From Streptomyces carminius (GTDB lineage: Bacteria; Actinomycetota; Actinomycetes; Streptomycetales; Streptomycetaceae), in NCBI RefSeq assembly GCF_002794255.1, contig NZ_PGGW01000067.1, forward strand, positions 310,001 to 374,000: a DNA stretch of 64,000 nt, in the 5' to 3' direction. The notes under the pieces are model-generated. The model searched no databases and had not been told where the DNA came from. It was given only the letters and a program-made list of their open reading frames with translations. The position numbers and the translations under genes were made by a program. Shown here piece by piece: positions 48,450-58,430 of the stretch. The stretch's first letter is position 1. Every line of letters starts with the position of its first letter.

Positions 48450-49166
48450 TCAGCTCATGTTGATGTTGGAGTTGCCGCTGCTCTGGTAGCCCTCGGTCGC
48501 CATGATCATGTAGTAGTTGAAGCTGCCCATCCGCAGCCCGGCCCGGCTCCACGCGTCGAAGTGGTTGCCGGTGGTGATGGTGCCGCCGGTCTTCTTCTGC
48601 TGCCGGACGCTCCAGTACTGGTCGAAGGTCCTGCCGTCGCCCTCGATGGAGGGGGCGTTGTACCGGGTCGTCTTGTAGATGTCGTACGTGCCGCCGTCGC
48701 TGCTGACCGTGCCCCGGTGCTCGCCCGTGGGCCGGTAGGTGCCCCAGTTGTCGACGATGTAGTACTCGACGAGCGGGTTCGCCGTCCACCCGTACAGGCA
48801 CAGGTACGCGTTGCCGGACGGGTTGAAGCTGCCGGAGTAGTGCACTGTCCGGCGGCTTCCGTTGCTCCAGCCCTTGCCGATGACGAAGTTGCCGGTGTTG
48901 CGCCACGAGGTGCTGTAGTTGCCGCCGTTCCCCAGGGTCGCGGAGACCGTTCCGGGGGCGTCGGTCCAGAACGAGAAGAAGTACCCGCTGTGGTGGCCGG
49001 TCTGGTTCGAGGTGATGGTCTGGGCGTGGGCGGTGCCGGCGGTCGGCAGTATCAGGCCGGAGGTGGCCACCGCCAGGGCGCCGGCGCGGCCGATGAAGCC
49101 CCTGCGGCTGAGGCCGCCGGGGGTGGGGACGCCGTTGTCGGGGGTGGGAGCGCCGTTCATGTGCAT
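48450..49166 (-). CDS. Endo-1,4-beta-xylanase, glycoside hydrolase family 11
   Basis: A 238-residue secreted xylanase. A Tat signal ([19 protein letters not shown]) ends near AHAQT. The mature 190 residues are a GH11 jelly roll: nucleophile Glu134 ([12 protein letters not shown]), acid/base Glu225 ([12 protein letters not shown]), and Asn93 in NFVIGKGW. No carbohydrate-binding module follows, unlike some Streptomyces XlnB-type enzymes. ATG 49166 has the ideal site GGAGG. It cuts xylan outside the cell. Confidence 0.94.
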
Positions 49167-52380: not shown

Positions 52381-53069
52381 CGCCCTGTCCCGCGGCGTCC
52401 GGCCGCGAGCCGCCGACGGCCCCGCGCCGGTCCCCGCCGGGCCCGGTACGGGGCCTCTCGCCGCGCCCCGGCCGGTGCCGCGGGGCCAGGGCCGGCGCCG
52501 GTCCGGGAGGGGGTGACCCGGCGGCGTGCGGCGGAGCGGCGGCCGCCCGAAGGTCCCGCGGGTGTCACGGGAATGACCGGTCTCAGTCCTTCAGTATCGG
52601 AAAAGTTCCGGTAAACATTGAGGGAGTGTTGGTCGGGTCCGCTGTCGCCCGGTGCTGGACCGAGCGTTTCCCGGCTTGTCAATGTGTGTCCTGAGCTGGG
52701 AGTCGCGGAAGGGAAGGGGCGATCCGACAGATCGCTTCCGTCTCCGAAAAGTTCCGGGGGAACGTATCGGGCAAGCGACAGTTCCGGTCAACGGGCGGCT
52801 CCTTCGGCCGGGGCTGTGAACGAGTCCGCTCACATACCGGCTGAGCTGCCCCGACGGTCCGTGAGGGAGGGGCGTGCCACTCCGCGCGCCTCCCGGCCTT
52901 CCGGCTGTGACCTGGTGATTCACATAAGTGACGATCGGCCGGAAGTGAATGGCGGTGGTGGTGGGGCCACATTTACCGTCGTGTTAACCACCAGGCCAGC
53001 ACTGGTTCACCGCACGTGCACGAAATGAACGCGGCGGGCTCCCCCCACAACCGCTGGAAGGACTACCAC
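52381..53069. other. Long intergenic region before the DUF4956-VTC-CotH operon
   Basis: 689 bases without a supported gene. The right half (52570-53000) is lower in G+C and contains repeated AGTTCCGG motifs (52604, 52751, 52782). It should hold the operon promoter. Confidence 0.55.
52599..52794. promoter_or_regulatory. Repeated AGTTCCGG motifs upstream of the operon
   Basis: GGAAAAGTTCCGGTAAAC at 52599-52616, CGAAAAGTTCCGGGGG at 52745-52760 and ACAGTTCCGGTCAAC at 52780-52794 share AGTTCCGG. The first two also share GAAAAGTTCCGG, and the first and third share AGTTCCGGT-AAC. They are candidate binding sites for an unknown regulator. Confidence 0.4.
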
Positions 53070-53705
53070 ATGGCGCAACTCGCCTTATTCCTGAGCGACA
53101 TCGCGGCAGTCAGCCTCCTGGTGTTCGGTTTGTACTTCCCACGCCACCGCAGGAAAGACCTGGTGGTGGCCTACCTCGGGGTGAACGTCGGGGTGCTCGC
53201 GGTGGCCAGCGCGCTGAGTTCGGGGAAGACCGGTGCCGGAATCGGACTTGGCATGGCCCTGTTCGGCGTGCTGTCGATCATCCGGCTGCGTTCGACCGAA
53301 CTGGACCAGCACGAGGTCGCCTACTACTTCTCCGCTCTGGCACTGGGCCTGCTCGGCGGTATGCAGACCACCGAGGTGTGGCGCTCGGCCGTGCTGATGG
53401 GGCTGATCGTGGCGGTGCTCTTCGTGGGCGACCACCCGCGGATGATGCGCAACCACCGCCGCCAGGTGATGGTGCTGGACACCGCGCTGCCCGACCACAC
53501 CGCGCTGGTGGCGTACCTGGAGCAGACCCTGGGAGCCCGGGTCCACTCGGCCGTCGTGCAGCGGGTCGACCTGGTCAACGACACCACCTTGGTGGACGTG
53601 CGCTACCGCTGCGCCCCCGGGCCGCACGCCAAGAACGCCAACACCGCCGCGCACGCCGAGCCGGCCGCCCCCGGCGGCACCACCCCGGTGGCGGTGAGGC
53701 CGTGA
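53070..53705 (+). CDS. DUF4956 membrane protein
   Basis: A 211-residue protein with about four helices (ALFLSDIAAVSLLVFGLYFP, VVAYLGVNVGVLAVASALSS, YYFSALALGLLGGM, SAVLMGLIVAVLFVGDH) and a soluble C-terminal domain. The conserved FGVLSIIRLRSTELDQHEVAYYF is the DUF4956 hallmark. ATG 53070 follows GGAAGGA. Codon 6 (53085-53087) is TTA. It overlaps the VTC gene by four bases. In many bacteria this family travels with VTC and CotH proteins; it is presumably the membrane anchor or channel of that set, an inference. Confidence 0.87.
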   Translation: MAQLALFLSDIAAVSLLVFGLYFPRHRRKDLVVAYLGVNVGVLAVASALSSGKTGAGIGLGMALFGVLSIIRLRSTELDQHEVAYYFSALALGLLGGMQTTEVWRSAVLMGLIVAVLFVGDHPRMMRNHRRQVMVLDTALPDHTALVAYLEQTLGARVHSAVVQRVDLVNDTTLVDVRYRCAPGPHAKNANTAAHAEPAAPGGTTPVAVRP

Positions 53706-54589
53706 GCGCCGGGAACCTGGGCGCCGCGCTGGAGGAACTCCGGCCGATCGGGCTGGAGGAACTCATCGCGTGCGCGTCGCTGCAGACCCGGGTGGACCGC
53801 AAGTACGTACTGCCGGCCGACGTGGCGGAGGAGCTGCTGGGCCGGCTGCCGTCCGGCACCCGGGTCCTGGACATCGACGGCGACCGCAGCTTCGCCTACC
53901 GGTCGCTGTACTTCGACACCCCCGAACTGACCAGCTACCTGCTGACCGCCCACCGGCGCCGCCGCCGGTTCAAGATACGCACCCGCCTCTACGAGCAGTC
54001 CGGTGACTGCTGGCTGGAGGTGAAGGTCCGCGGCAACCGCGGCAGCACCGTCAAGCAGCGCCTGCCCTACGAACCGCGGGACTGGAACACGCTGGGACCG
54101 GGGCGCGACTTCGTCGACGAGATCCTGGCGGAGAACCGCATCGCCGGAAGCCCGCTGTTCGACTACGTCCCCACGCTGACCACCCGGTACCACCGCACGA
54201 CCCTCCACCTTCCGGACACCAACAGCCGGGTCACCATCGACACCGGACTGACCTGGGTGGACGGCGACCGGGAGATGTGCCTGCCGGACACGGTGATCGT
54301 GGAGACCAAGACCGGTTCCACGGCCTCGCACGTCGACCGGCTGCTGTGGCGCAGCCGGTACCGGCCCAGCCGTATCTCCAAGTACGCGACCGGCCTCGCC
54401 GCGCTGCGTCCGCACCTGCCCGACGGGCCCTGGCGGCGCACCCTGCGCCGGCACTTCCCGCCGGACCTCCCGCGGACCGCGCCGGACGCCGGGCCCCGGA
54501 GGGCCGAGGTGCCGGTCACCGGTTCCCCGGACGTGGCGCCCGTGTGCCCGCCACTCCAGGAGCGGCTCGACGCGGTGATGTCCCGCTAG
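53702..54589 (+). CDS. VTC-domain polyphosphate polymerase family protein
   Basis: A 295-residue protein of the triphosphate-tunnel (VTC/CYTH) superfamily. The expected basic and acidic tunnel residues are seen: RVDRKYVLP, YRSLYFDTPEL, RRRRFKIRTRLYE, CWLEVKVRGNRG, VIVETKTGS and the final SKYATGLAAL. Yeast Vtc4 makes polyphosphate from ATP with this domain; bacterial members beside DUF4956 and CotH are not characterised as far as I know. No membrane helix is present, so it is probably cytoplasmic, attached to the DUF4956 protein. GTG 53702 overlaps the upstream stop. Confidence 0.87.
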   Translation: MSAGNLGAALEELRPIGLEELIACASLQTRVDRKYVLPADVAEELLGRLPSGTRVLDIDGDRSFAYRSLYFDTPELTSYLLTAHRRRRRFKIRTRLYEQSGDCWLEVKVRGNRGSTVKQRLPYEPRDWNTLGPGRDFVDEILAENRIAGSPLFDYVPTLTTRYHRTTLHLPDTNSRVTIDTGLTWVDGDREMCLPDTVIVETKTGSTASHVDRLLWRSRYRPSRISKYATGLAALRPHLPDGPWRRTLRRHFPPDLPRTAPDAGPRRAEVPVTGSPDVAPVCPPLQERLDAVMSR

Positions 54590-54706
54590 CGGCCCGCCCG
54601 CAGAACAGACCGCACGCGACTCTCGTTCGACGTGCCGGCAACAGCAGTTCCGTGGCAGTCCGACCGCGTCTGCCTTCATCGTGTTACGGATCGAGGTGCA
54701 ACTCCA

Positions 54707-56518
54707 GTGCACAGAAAAAGGATGAGCGTGGTGGGCTTACTCACCGCGCTGACCGTCGGAGTGACGGGCAGCGCGGCGGTGTACGGTGCCCCCGCGCCGT
54801 CGTCGGCCAAGACCGGAACCGCCGGGCAGACGACGACCGGGACGAGTGACGGGGAGGCCGGGGCCAAGGCCGCGAAGGACGCCGCGGCCATCCGGCAGCA
54901 GCAGGACGAACTGGCCGGGGACATCGACTTCTCGGTGCCCAGCGGCACCTTCCAGGGCCAGGTGTCGGTCACCCTGAGTACCTCCGTGGCGAACGCGCAG
55001 ATCCGGTACACCACCGACGGGACGCTGCCGACGGCCTCCTCCGCGCTGTATTCCGGGGCGCTGAACCTGACCGCCACCACCCAGCTGCGCGCCCAGGCGT
55101 TCGTGAACGGCGCCGCCAGCGGCGAGCCGGGCACGGCCATCTACCTCGCCCGCGCCGCCAACGCCACCACCGCCCACGACCTGCCGGTGCTGGTGCTGGA
55201 CGACTACGGCGCCGGGAAGCCCGGCCGGGACTGGGTGGACACGGCGGCCATGCTGATGGAACCGCAGGGCGGTACCACCTCGCTCGGCGCGACGCCCACA
55301 CTGGCCACCCGGGCCGCCTTCCATCTGCGCGGGCAGTCCTCGTCGAACTTCGAGAAGGCCCCGTACCGGCTGGAGCTGCGGGACAACCAGGACGACGACG
55401 CCGACTACCCGATGCTGGGCATGCCGGCCGAGTCCGACTGGGTGCTGCGCGGACCGTTCCCGGACAAGTCCCTGGTCCGTGACGCCTTCGCCTACACCCT
55501 GGGCCAGGAGCTGGGGCTGAAGGCCCCGCGCCACCGGTTCGTCGAGGTGTACACCAACCTGGACGGCGGCACGCTGGGATCCGAGGACTATCAGGGCGTC
55601 TACCTGCTCGACGAGACCATCAAGAACCAGAAGGACCGGCTGGACCTGAAGCAGCTCGACGAGGAGGACACCAGCCTCCCGGAGATCAGCGGCGGCTACA
55701 TCTTCAAGTTCGACGCCTTCGCGGCCGAGGAACCCAAGCTGGTGTGCACCGGCGCGGCCGCCACCTGCTGGAACGACCTGGAGGTCGTGGACCCGGAGCC
55801 GCTCAACTCCCAGCAGCAGCAGTGGCTGACCCAGTACGTCCAGAAGTTCCACGACTCGCTGCGCAGCGCCAACCCCTCCGACCCGCAGACCGGCTACCCG
55901 GCGTACATCGACGTCGACTCCTTCGTCAACCAGATCATCCTCAACGAGCTGGCCCGCCAGGGAGACGGCTACATCCGCAGCCAGTACTTCCACAAGGACC
56001 GGGACGGGAAGATCTTCACCGGCCCGCTGTGGGACTACGACATCGGCTTCGGAGCCGTCCCCGGGGCCGACGCGATCGAGGGCTGGCAGTTCCGGCCGTT
56101 CTCGTTCCCCGGCATGCCGCCCACCACCGACTGGTTCCTGCGGCTGATGGAACAGCCGGAGTTCCAGCAGCGGGTCAGGACGCGGTGGCAGGAACTGCGC
56201 CAGGGCGTGCTCTCCGACGCGCAGCTGCGGGCGCGGGTCAGCCGGCTGGCCTCGCCGCTGACCAACGCAGCGCAGCGGAACTTCACCAAGTGGCCCAACC
56301 TCAACAGCCGCATGGTCGGCGGGTTCCAGACCAAGACCTCCCAGACCTGGCAGCAGCAGCTGACGATCCTGCAGGACTGGCTGGTGCAGCGGGCCGCCTG
56401 GATCGACTCCTCCGGGTGGGACCCCAGCATCAACCCCAACCCGGGATGGCCGCCGCAGCCCGGCAAGGAGGAACTGCTCAAGGTCATGCCGGACCTCAAG
56501 GGGCGCGAACTGTCCTGA
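54707..56518 (+). CDS. Secreted CotH kinase-like protein 1 (TTA-containing)
   Basis: A 603-residue exported protein. The signal is HRKRMSVVGLLTALTVGVTG with cleavage near YGAPA. A chitobiase-C-like beta domain follows (DIDFSVPSGTFQGQVSVTLS, IRYTTDGTLPTASSALYSG), then the CotH domain: FHLRGQSSSNFEKAPYRLEL, DWVLRGPFPDKSLVRDAFAY, DYQGVYLLDETIKNQKDRL, and the metal-binding GPLWDYDIGFG. CotH of Bacillus phosphorylates spore coat proteins. GTG 54707 was chosen by analogy with the paralogue; ATG 54722 is possible. Codon 11 (54737-54739) is TTA. It is 117 bases after the VTC gene. Confidence 0.87.
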   Translation: MHRKRMSVVGLLTALTVGVTGSAAVYGAPAPSSAKTGTAGQTTTGTSDGEAGAKAAKDAAAIRQQQDELAGDIDFSVPSGTFQGQVSVTLSTSVANAQIRYTTDGTLPTASSALYSGALNLTATTQLRAQAFVNGAASGEPGTAIYLARAANATTAHDLPVLVLDDYGAGKPGRDWVDTAAMLMEPQGGTTSLGATPTLATRAAFHLRGQSSSNFEKAPYRLELRDNQDDDADYPMLGMPAESDWVLRGPFPDKSLVRDAFAYTLGQELGLKAPRHRFVEVYTNLDGGTLGSEDYQGVYLLDETIKNQKDRLDLKQLDEEDTSLPEISGGYIFKFDAFAAEEPKLVCTGAAATCWNDLEVVDPEPLNSQQQQWLTQYVQKFHDSLRSANPSDPQTGYPAYIDVDSFVNQIILNELARQGDGYIRSQYFHKDRDGKIFTGPLWDYDIGFGAVPGADAIEGWQFRPFSFPGMPPTTDWFLRLMEQPEFQQRVRTRWQELRQGVLSDAQLRARVSRLASPLTNAAQRNFTKWPNLNSRMVGGFQTKTSQTWQQQLTILQDWLVQRAAWIDSSGWDPSINPNPGWPPQPGKEELLKVMPDLKGRELS

Positions 56519-56680
56519 GCCGGGGCCGGCGGCCCGTCCGCCGCGCACCGGCCGTACGCCGGGCCGGCCCGTCCCACCGGGCCGGCCCGGCGCCGGTCTT
56601 TCCGGCCCGGCGCTCCCGCCGGCTCCTTCCTTTTTCCAGCCGCTCCTTCCTCCGTCCTCCTCACCGATTGGGGTACCGCC

Positions 56681-58372
56681 GTGGTGCGCAGGAGAAGAAC
56701 GAACGCGGTGGGCTTGCTCACCGCACTGGTCATCGTCATGACGGGCAGTGCGGCGGCGCACGGCGCCCCCGTGCCGCCGGGCCCGGCCGCGACCGCCGAA
56801 CGGACCGGGCAGAGCACCGTGCGGGACACCGGGAAGGAGGAGAGCGGAAACCAGCTGACCGGGGACATCGACTTCTCGGTGCCCAGCGGCACCTTCCAGG
56901 ACGAGCTGACGGTGGCACTGGGCACCTCCGTGTCCGGCGCCGAGATCCGGTACACCACCGACGGGACGCTGCCCACGGCCTCCTCGCCCCTGTACTCCGG
57001 GGCGCTGGACCTGACCGCCACCACCCAGTTGCGCGCCCAGGCCTTCGTGAACGGCGCGGCCGGCGGCGAGCCGGGCACGGCGCTGTACGTCGCCCGCTCG
57101 TTCGATGCCGCGCACGATCTGCCGCTGCTGGTCATGGACGCGTACGGCGCGGGCAAGCCCGGCCGCGAGTACGCGGACGCCGCCGCACTGCTGATGGAAC
57201 CGGAGTCCGGCACCGCCTCGCTCTCCACCGCCCCCGCGCTGGCCACCCGGGCCGGATTCCATCTGCGCGGGCAGTCCTCGGCCATGTTCGAGAAGGCCCC
57301 GTACCGGCTGGAGTGGTGGGACAACCACGACGAGGACGCCGACCACCCCGTGCTGGGCATGCCGGCCGACTCCGACTGGGTGCTGCGCGGACCGTTCGCG
57401 GACAAGTCCCTGATCCGCACCGCGCTCATGTACGAGCTGGGCCGGAAGACGGGCATGCGGGTACCGCGCCACCGGTTCGTCGAGGTGTACCTGAACTCGG
57501 ACGGCGGCCCGCTGGAGGCCGCCGACTACCAGGGCGTCTACATGATCACCGAGACCATCAAGAACCAGAAGGACCGGCTGGACCTGAAGGAGCTCGGCGA
57601 GGAGGACATCAGCGAACCGGCCGTCACAGGCGGTTACATCTTCAAGTTCGAGTGGTTCGCCGCCGAGGAGCCGACCCTGACGTGCACCGGGGAGGCCGCC
57701 ACCTGCTGGCGCGACCTGGAGGTCGCCGAACCCTCACAGCTCCGGCCCGAGCAGGAGGAGTGGCTGACCGGGTACGTCCAGAAGTTCCACGACTCGCTGC
57801 GCGGCGCGTCCCCGTCAGATCCGCAGACCGGCTATCCGGCTTACATCGACGTCGACTCGTTCGTCGACCAGGTCATCCTCAACGAGCTGAGCCGCGAGAT
57901 GGACGCCTACATCCGCAGCCAGTACTTCCACAAGGACCGGGAGGGGAAGATCTTCGCCGGGCCGCTGTGGGACTACAACCTCACCTTCGGCACCGGCGGG
58001 TACTTCGGGAACCAACTGGTCGAGGGCTGGCAGTTTGAGCAGACCCGGCAGTCGCCCGCCAACGACTGGTTCATCCGGCTGATGGACGACCCGTCGTTCG
58101 TCCAGCGGGTCGACGAGCGCTGGCGGGAGCTGCGCGCGGGCGCCCTGTCCGACGGCTCCCTGACGGCCCTGGTCGACGGGCTGGCCGCGCCGCTGACCGA
58201 CGCCGCCGGGCGCAACTTCACCAGGTGGCCCAACCTCGGCAGCCGCATGGTCGGCCCGTTCGTCACCCCGACCGCCGACACCTGGCAGGGGCAGGTGGAC
58301 CAGCTGCGCGACTGGATGCTGCGGCGCGCCGCCTGGCTGGACTCCTCCGGCTGGCGGCCCGACGCGGGCTGA
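56681..58372 (+). CDS. Secreted CotH kinase-like protein 2
   Basis: A 563-residue paralogue of the previous protein with the same order: signal (RRRRTNAVGLLTALVIVMTG), chitobiase-C-like domain (IRYTTDGTLPTASSPLYSG) and CotH domain (FHLRGQSSAMFEKAPYRLEW, DWVLRGPFADKSLIRTALMY, DYQGVYMITETIKNQKDRL). The metal motif reads GPLWDYNLTFG, with Asn where the first copy has Asp. The leucine codon that is TTA in copy 1 is TTG here, so bldA dependence differs. The pair clearly arose by tandem duplication. GTG 56681 or GTG 56684 may start it. Confidence 0.86.
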   Translation: MVRRRRTNAVGLLTALVIVMTGSAAAHGAPVPPGPAATAERTGQSTVRDTGKEESGNQLTGDIDFSVPSGTFQDELTVALGTSVSGAEIRYTTDGTLPTASSPLYSGALDLTATTQLRAQAFVNGAAGGEPGTALYVARSFDAAHDLPLLVMDAYGAGKPGREYADAAALLMEPESGTASLSTAPALATRAGFHLRGQSSAMFEKAPYRLEWWDNHDEDADHPVLGMPADSDWVLRGPFADKSLIRTALMYELGRKTGMRVPRHRFVEVYLNSDGGPLEAADYQGVYMITETIKNQKDRLDLKELGEEDISEPAVTGGYIFKFEWFAAEEPTLTCTGEAATCWRDLEVAEPSQLRPEQEEWLTGYVQKFHDSLRGASPSDPQTGYPAYIDVDSFVDQVILNELSREMDAYIRSQYFHKDREGKIFAGPLWDYNLTFGTGGYFGNQLVEGWQFEQTRQSPANDWFIRLMDDPSFVQRVDERWRELRAGALSDGSLTALVDGLAAPLTDAAGRNFTRWPNLGSRMVGPFVTPTADTWQGQVDQLRDWMLRRAAWLDSSGWRPDAG

Positions 58373-58389: not shown

Positions 58390-58430
58390 CCCGGCCGGCC
58401 GTCCCCGGACAACGGGGACGGCCGGCCGGG
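58390..58430. terminator. Bidirectional terminator after CotH 2
   Basis: A perfect 18-bp stem (CCCGGCCGGCCGTCCCCG at 58390-58407 with 58413-58430), loop GACAA, between the convergent CotH 2 and peptidase-like genes. Confidence 0.85.

Follow-up and report, generated by a model that had tools for sequence, protein, structure and literature searches.

Operon organization and encoded proteins

The window analyzed here is a 64-kb stretch of contig NZ_PGGW01000067.1 of Streptomyces carminius (host genome of 7.2 Mb in 71 contigs). It contains an operon of four genes, all on the forward strand, which, according to the Pfam matches and the open reading frames, encode, in this order, a DUF4956 membrane protein, a VTC-type polyphosphate polymerase and two secreted CotH kinase-like proteins, CotH 1 and CotH 2 (Table 1). 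An earlier note on this DNA, made from the sequence alone, had listed the same genes and suggested that the first two proteins make or move a phosphate polymer or donor that the CotH pair uses on wall or coat proteins. Pfam and hydropathy analysis bore out the gene set and the positions, including the overlap of 4 bases (GTGA) between the DUF4956 and VTC genes and the chitobiase-C-like domains of the CotH proteins, which are CHB_HEX_C_1 domains (PF13290) located N-terminally of the CotH domain in both. In the tree of DUF4956-VTC pairs described below, the closest relatives of the window proteins come from Streptomyces megasporus and other Streptomyces.

The VTC domain (PF09359) of the second protein scores 101.2 bits, well over the cut-off (23), and a profile built from 19 VTC proteins of five phyla matches yeast VTC4 with an E-value of 6.5e-21; all 10 solved relatives matched by this profile are VTC subunits. 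Of the 14 VTC4 active-site residues checked, which we take to be catalytic, 13 (K200, R264, R266, E279, K281, K294, R361, R373, D377, E426, K428, S457 and K458) align in the window protein and are invariant across the 19 sequences, and the remaining one, K455, is an arginine in the window protein and varies among the 19. Judged by these alignments, the active site is intact in comparison with yeast VTC4. No membrane helix was found in the window VTC protein (the highest 19-residue hydropathy is 0.79) and no SPX domain, the Pfam scan having returned the VTC domain alone. The DUF4956 protein has four hydrophobic helices by hydropathy and five long ones in its AlphaFold2 model, in which they are followed by a C-terminal beta-alpha-beta-beta domain (mean predicted local distance difference test score, pLDDT, 71.8).

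An evident signal peptide opens both CotH proteins, as judged by a simple hydropathy criterion instead of SignalP; the open frame of CotH 1 begins at 54632, and the GTG codon at 54707 is the likelier start. The match of the CotH profile to the solved Bacillus CotH (PDB 5jd9) is weak (E 0.01); in it, the active-site aspartate pair of 5jd9, D228 and D251, falls on D445 and D468 of CotH 1, positions that are invariant in 21 sequences and are kept in both window proteins. CotH 2 is 67% identical to CotH 1 and has WDYN in place of WDYD, that is, an asparagine at the further aspartate of this motif. The CBM2 cellulose-binding domain was not detected by Pfam in the window CotH proteins; it is present in 7 of 7 CotH orthologues picked for their long C-terminal tails (two from Micromonospora and one each from Microbispora, Actinosynnema, Streptomyces, Jidongwangia and Cellulomonas).

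A perfect hairpin closes the operon ahead of a convergent frame and is probably the terminator proposed in the earlier note; a consensus scan for T-run terminators yielded 2 sites, with 2.3 expected, neither of them 3' of the last gene. Given the hairpin that separates the two cotH genes, the CotH 2 gene may have some transcription independent of the rest of the operon. Upstream of the operon, a 16-base block, distinct from the PHO repeats discussed below, is shared by 8 Streptomyces-type loci including the window.

Table 1. Operon features and flanking signals, with positions counted from the first nucleotide of the window
Feature	Position	Strand	Evidence
Conserved upstream block CGGAAGTGAATGGCGG	52940-52955	+	Alignment of 8 upstream regions, with 10 of the 16 positions invariant
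Predicted PHO box, five 11-nucleotide direct repeat units	52972-53026	+	Only site of such strength in the 64-kb window
DUF4956 membrane protein	53070-53705	+	PF16316, E 3.2e-59; hydropathy; AlphaFold2 model
VTC-type tunnel-fold polyphosphate polymerase	53702-54589	+	PF09359, E 8.7e-29; VTC4 profile match; hydropathy
Secreted CotH kinase-like protein 1	54707-56518	+	PF08757, E 3e-67; signal peptide
CHB_HEX_C_1 domain, CotH 1	54938-55126	+	PF13290, E 6.1e-19
Hairpin separating the two cotH genes	56558-56591	+	14-bp stem; folded stretch z -4.4
Secreted CotH kinase-like protein 2	56681-58372	+	PF08757, E 3.4e-67
CHB_HEX_C_1 domain, CotH 2	56882-57058	+	PF13290, E 2.6e-17
Perfect 18-bp hairpin, probable terminator	58390-58430	not applicable	RNA folding, stretch z -6.35

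A fixed DUF4956-VTC pair with an exchangeable secreted partner

In a sample of 149 actinobacterial genomes, DUF4956 was found in 16 and VTC in the same 16, with the two genes adjacent at all 17 loci. CotH is encoded in 13 of these 16 genomes and in none of the 133 others; in 11 of the 13, it lies on the contig of the pair, within about 3 kb, and in the other two (G108 and G147), both fragmented assemblies, on another contig. The three remaining genomes of the window's genus in this sample (G023, G107 and G128) lack DUF4956, VTC and CotH alike, which makes the distribution of the set patchy. Among 101 genomes of a second phylum, that of a Thermomicrobiales genome (G195) and presumably the Chloroflexota of GTDB, VTC and DUF4956 were each found in 8, with 7 in common and adjacent in 6 of these; CotH occurs in 4, in each case less than 1 kb from DUF4956, and the pair occurs without CotH in three (G202, G207 and G260). 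In a set of 14 named controls, DUF4956 and VTC share the same three genomes, those of Bacteroides ihuae, Corynebacterium glutamicum and Methanosarcina acetivorans, and CotH is present in C. glutamicum, M. acetivorans and Bacillus subtilis. Fisher tests, which ignore kinship among the genomes, remain extreme after removal of the two centre genomes.

We further examined the 80 best-scoring loci out of at least 553 relatives, a choice that leans the sample toward window-like actinobacteria (81 loci when the window is counted; some, such as L103, stop at contig ends). At 75 of these 80 loci, VTC is the next gene after DUF4956, and in 72 of the 75 a start codon is found at the position of the 4-base overlap. 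Thus, DUF4956 and VTC form a fixed pair, and the link between the families is real, strong and beyond chance. In one genome (G099; L012 and L022), there is an in-frame stop in both DUF4956 and VTC, which would reflect either decay of the pair or errors in the sequence.

The secreted third gene is exchangeable. At the 80 loci, it encodes CotH in 41 cases, a Cthe_2159 protein (PF14262) in 32, neither in 7 and both in none. In the three actinobacterial pair genomes that lack CotH, the third gene is of the Cthe_2159 type, so that every one of the 16 has one partner or the other; overall, Cthe_2159 was found in 6 of the 149 genomes, of which 5 carry the pair. The partner type switches at least six times on the tree of 75 pairs, three of the switches being forced by starred branches; the tree, from a quick search with Shimodaira-Hasegawa-like approximate likelihood ratio (SH-aLRT) support only, includes the window and four rows without a partner label, and leaves out L126, where VTC is in two frames, and five loci without VTC. 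Paractinoplanes toevensis has one CotH-type and one Cthe_2159-type pair (L113 and L114). CotH is present somewhere in 35 of the 46 locus genomes searched (46 of the 80), and a locus of the Cthe_2159 type therefore need not mean a CotH-free genome. The signal-peptide rule passes 39 of the 41 CotH proteins and 18 of the 27 testable Cthe_2159 proteins, and of the 11 that it misses, 10 seem by eye to bear a signal and one (L134) is a fragment. The alignments A4, A5, A6, A7 and A8 (36, 21, 33, 19 and 25 rows, respectively) were picked for spread. The expectation of the earlier note that the families are linked holds in that CotH was never found in a genome lacking the pair in the actinobacterial sample, but it does not extend to the pair itself, which is often without CotH (3 of 16 genomes, 39 of 80 loci).

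Phosphate-related genes accompany the pair in other phyla. On plasmids of Aminobacter, Shinella and Nitratireductor, the third or fourth gene next to the pair is annotated as phytase-like (PF13449 in the Aminobacter and Nitratireductor records), and in Nitratireductor, a phosphate transporter of the PHO4 family sits between the pair and this gene. In Deinococcus sp. QL22, the pair adjoins genes for an acid phosphatase and for a phosphonate transporter. CotH accompanies the pair in Deinococcus taeanensis, Planococcus and Pseudobutyrivibrio, where VTC is placed ahead of DUF4956. Beyond the four families of the module, no cluster of neighbouring proteins is shared by over 5 genera at the 81 loci, as determined with a simple gene caller; recurrent glycan-synthase genes, for which these neighbourhoods were checked, likewise do not exceed that number.

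Several neighbours were noted in passing. At two CotH-bearing actinobacterial loci, proteins rich in aspartate with DY/DGVTDY repeats and a signal-like start are encoded beside VTC (L057, 9324-10235, with a match to RsgI_M; L058, 10664-11752) and are candidates for a substrate or binding partner. One large protein with two CotH stretches lies beside the pair at L059 (10380-14126), and L068 (9689-13381) is similar. Two loci from different phyla have, between CotH and the gene of a HEAT protein, a protein that matches no Pfam family (754 amino acids at L056, 5671-7935; 689 amino acids at L158, 8182-10251). In the window, a GH11 xylanase (PF00457) is encoded at 48450-49166, and its protein cluster is found near the pair at 6 loci of 3 genera, the window included.

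A predicted PHO box upstream of the operon

The five repeat units upstream of the DUF4956 gene have the cores TTTACCG, GTTAACC, GGCCAGC, GTTCACC and GTGCACG. Direct repeats of the GTTCACC type in units of 11 bases are the form of the PHO box in Streptomyces coelicolor (PMC4415409). Over the 81 upstream regions, the score peaks at a repeat period of 11 only, and none of 150 permuted units did as well as the PHO unit, the best of them (13.74 compared to 14.09) being the PHO unit shifted by one base. A score of at least 15 is reached in 27 of the 81 regions before pairs, compared with 4 of 474 regions upstream of control genes at these loci; by strand, the counts are 25 of 81 on the coding and 4 of 81 on the reverse strand. 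The signal appears at 17 of 42 CotH-type and 7 of 32 Cthe_2159-type loci and in six named families. In a scan of 1,208,994 bases, the stretches of up to 300 bp before DUF4956, which make up 1% of the scanned positions, hold 5 of 5 sites scoring at least 18, 8 of 11 scoring at least 17 and 15 of 19 scoring at least 16, counts that are inflated by near relatives; one of the three remaining sites at 17 or above just precedes the Cthe_2159 domain of L101, a gene whose start is not fixed.

The operon is probably switched by the phosphate sensor of the cell, via the predicted PhoP site, although certain genes with a confirmed PHO box do not respond to phosphate in an obvious way (PMC4415409). The PHO boxes that precede ppk (PMC7866108) are a precedent for a polyphosphate gene under the control of the Streptomyces Pho regulon. 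The position of the box seems to resemble that in activated promoters. Because the PHO box ties the operon to phosphate control independently of the domain names, the link to phosphate is now based on both regulation and domain names, and the phosphate theme of the earlier note gains further independent support from the phosphate-transport and phosphatase-type neighbours in other phyla. Also in favour of that note, the VTC4 site is kept and the CotH aspartates align, if weakly. A search for papers joining "CotH" with "Pho regulon", outside of which subscription papers and preprints fell, found none.

Before alphaproteobacterial pairs, PHO boxes of the Escherichia coli type stand well above shuffled sequences in one of three records, that of Nitratireductor (L157). 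It has three CTGTCAT-type repeats on the reverse strand, no more than about 60 bp from the DUF4956 start, with 18 of 21 matches, equalled in none of 300 shuffles, and these are a possible PhoB box.

A putative envelope phosphate module and its relation to known systems

We propose, with moderate confidence, that the operon encodes a stand-alone, PhoP-controlled envelope phosphate module. The cytosolic VTC-type polymerase, translationally coupled to DUF4956, would make polyphosphate from ATP at the membrane, as its intact site suggests. DUF4956 would be the membrane partner of VTC and might pass the polyphosphate chain outward, a role that falls in yeast to the membrane part of the VTC complex. 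The secreted partner, two CotH kinases in this operon but a Cthe_2159-type or phytase-like protein in related ones, would act outside the cell on the product or on a surface glycan, and expression would follow the phosphate supply through predicted binding of PhoP to the statistically defined site. We infer both the export of polyphosphate and the phosphoryl donor of CotH. The earlier note saw wall or coat proteins as the target; given the carbohydrate-binding partners (CBM2 on CotH orthologues, and Cthe_2159), a surface glycan is at least as likely.

A more specific version of this model, which we consider very unlikely, is that exported polyphosphate replaces ATP as the donor with which the secreted CotH proteins phosphorylate glycans of the surface or proteins bound to them, with VTC and DUF4956 pumping the polymer under PhoP control. 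Such a donor would explain how kinases can function outside the cell, where ATP is lacking, why CotH was never found without the pair in the samples of 149 and 101 genomes, and why B. subtilis CotH, which acts inside the mother cell, does without the pair. The idea of the earlier note that VTC makes a donor for CotH is a hypothesis; it is supported in that CotH depends on the pair across the sampled genomes, but is weakened by the five loci where VTC is missing and by the deletion of VTC in Streptococcus intermedius, for which no effect was reported, unlike that of cotH (PMC12345266).

Several further observations weigh against the proposed module. The same work on S. intermedius reported effects of DUF4956 loss as well, again unlike VTC deletion (PMC12345266). 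At five of the 80 loci, DUF4956 has no VTC alongside (L118, L127, L140, L141 and L148), two of these adjoining CotH and one Cthe_2159, and DUF4956 may be a closer partner of the secreted protein than VTC is. The second phylum includes DUF4956 alone (G292), a weak VTC alone (G276) and a pair that is not adjacent (G260); in the actinobacterial sample, G012 shows a partial match to Cthe_2159 but no pair, and the CotH of B. subtilis is accompanied by neither DUF4956 nor VTC. A channel role of DUF4956 finds no structural support, in that Foldseek gave no match to the model at E<=0.001, and the Z-scores of VIA-align against solved folds were middling, the best (7.0) being for acyl-CoA dehydrogenases; by these comparisons, neither MgtC nor any other fold of DUF4956 is shown or excluded. 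What weak resemblance there is points to MgtC: PF02308 matches 3 of 6 DUF4956 proteins, all below the cut-off (best E 2.2e-5, 25.2 compared to 31.4 bits), with no match to the window protein (P0001) and no MgtC gene found in the host genome (G000). As for the regulation, only 25 of the 81 upstream regions reach a score of 15 on the forward strand, many of them from near relatives, and, should PhoP act as an activator here, the cell would be making polyphosphate at a high price just when phosphate is scarce.

The earlier note held that a pathway joining these families is not described, which is contradicted by work on Pel clusters: in streptococci and clostridia, contiguous genes for CotH, a poly-phosphate polymerase, DUF4956 and DUF4832 lie beside pelDEADAFG, and bifidobacteria have a variant (PMC7112168). 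In S. intermedius, all mutants with deletions of module genes still aggregate and make Pel; in 10% artificial sputum medium, strains without DUF4956 or cotH aggregate less than half as much, and the level of Pel goes up upon loss of DUF4956 and down upon loss of cotH (PMC12345266). These results point to an alternative that we regard as somewhat unlikely, namely, that the module tunes or decorates an exopolysaccharide made by a synthase and its phosphate chemistry serves the glycan, for example, with CotH as a kinase of a glycan or matrix protein. Also compatible with this alternative are the GT2/chitin-synthase-like gene and the HEAT protein found with the module at L056, a gene set much like that of the NELoc-2 locus of Clostridium perfringens, where VTC, CotH, HEAT and GT2 genes occur together (PMC2879425), the glycosyltransferase cluster that surrounds the module in Pseudobutyrivibrio, the CBM2 domains of the long-tailed CotH orthologues and Cthe_2159 as the alternative partner. 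However, it does not predict a PHO box, the window CotH proteins lack CBM2, and no neighbour outside the module recurs widely. Moreover, none of 57 module carriers (52 genomes and 5 plasmid records, the latter silent on the chromosome; L073 was left out of this search) has PelG over the cut-off, with weak partial matches below it in three. The window itself has cotH, VTC and DUF4956 contiguous, as the Pel accessory genes are; membership in a Pel cluster was considered and rejected, there being no PelG match in the host genome and no adjacency to pelDEADAFG.

It seems unlikely that DUF4956, as an MgtC-like and ACT-like protein, and VTC instead form a cytosolic gauge that senses or buffers polyphosphate or ATP, with the secreted protein merely co-regulated and using another donor. 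The sub-threshold similarity to MgtC, the reading of the S. intermedius DUF4956 protein SIR_1592 as MgtC plus ACT (PMC12345266), the PHO box and the lack of a reported effect of VTC deletion, unlike that of cotH, are all consistent with such a gauge. Against it, each of the 16 actinobacterial pair genomes carries CotH or Cthe_2159, and at most of the 80 loci the partner is swapped, not lost, which suggests a shared job at the surface. That the VTC domain is a tunnel-fold triphosphatase or a polyphosphate-binding regulator with no polymerase activity is very unlikely, given the invariant VTC4 residues in five phyla and the exclusive match to solved VTC subunits, even though the tunnel fold includes triphosphatases and no measured activity of a bacterial member was found in the literature searched.

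The association of the three families is already published as a Pel accessory, and its stand-alone occurrence is new, as are the fixed pair, the exchangeable partner, the kept VTC4 residues and the PHO box; no description of the module as a stand-alone unit was found in the literature searched, subscription papers and preprints apart. If the proposed envelope phosphate module is real, a VTC-type polymerase, a family best known from eukaryotes, would be the core of a bacterial surface system in several phyla, and secreted CotH kinases and Cthe_2159 proteins would enter phosphate biology. The feeding of an extracellular kinase would become testable in ordinary Streptomyces, with the PHO box as an experimental handle.

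Compared with known systems, the operon shares with the Streptomyces Pho regulon (PMC4415409, PMC7866108) the GTTCACC-type 11-nucleotide repeats and, with ppk, a polyphosphate gene preceded by PHO boxes; it differs in its CotH genes, "CotH" being absent from the main text of PMC7866108. The Bacillus CotH kinase has the CotH domain and the two aspartates that align in the weak match described above, whereas the window proteins have, in addition, a signal peptide and a CHB_HEX_C_1 domain, and B. subtilis, from the control set, has neither VTC nor DUF4956. With the yeast VTC complex (VTC4, PDB 3g3q), the operon has in common the tunnel-fold catalytic domain and the same active-site residues save K455; here, however, the VTC chain has no SPX domain or membrane helix, and a separate family, DUF4956, would be the membrane part. 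NELoc-2 resembles the module in VTC, CotH, HEAT and the GT2 "chitin synthase", and the membrane proteins annotated there as "tubulin/FtsZ", next to VTC, probably belong to DUF4956; it differs in being part of a larger wall or polysaccharide locus in a non-actinobacterial host (PMC2879425). The closest counterparts are the Pel accessory genes, cotH, poly-phosphate polymerase and DUF4956, in part with DUF4832 (PMC7112168), and SIR_1592-1594 of S. intermedius (PMC12345266), which have the same three families side by side, a secreted CotH and, in the reading of PMC12345266, a DUF4956 protein with membrane helices and an ACT-like C-terminal domain. In contrast to these, the window operon is without pel genes, starts with DUF4956, encodes two CotH proteins bearing CHB_HEX_C_1 and is preceded by a predicted PHO box; and whereas PMC12345266 reports no success in finding this arrangement away from the Pel locus, the present analysis did find it elsewhere.

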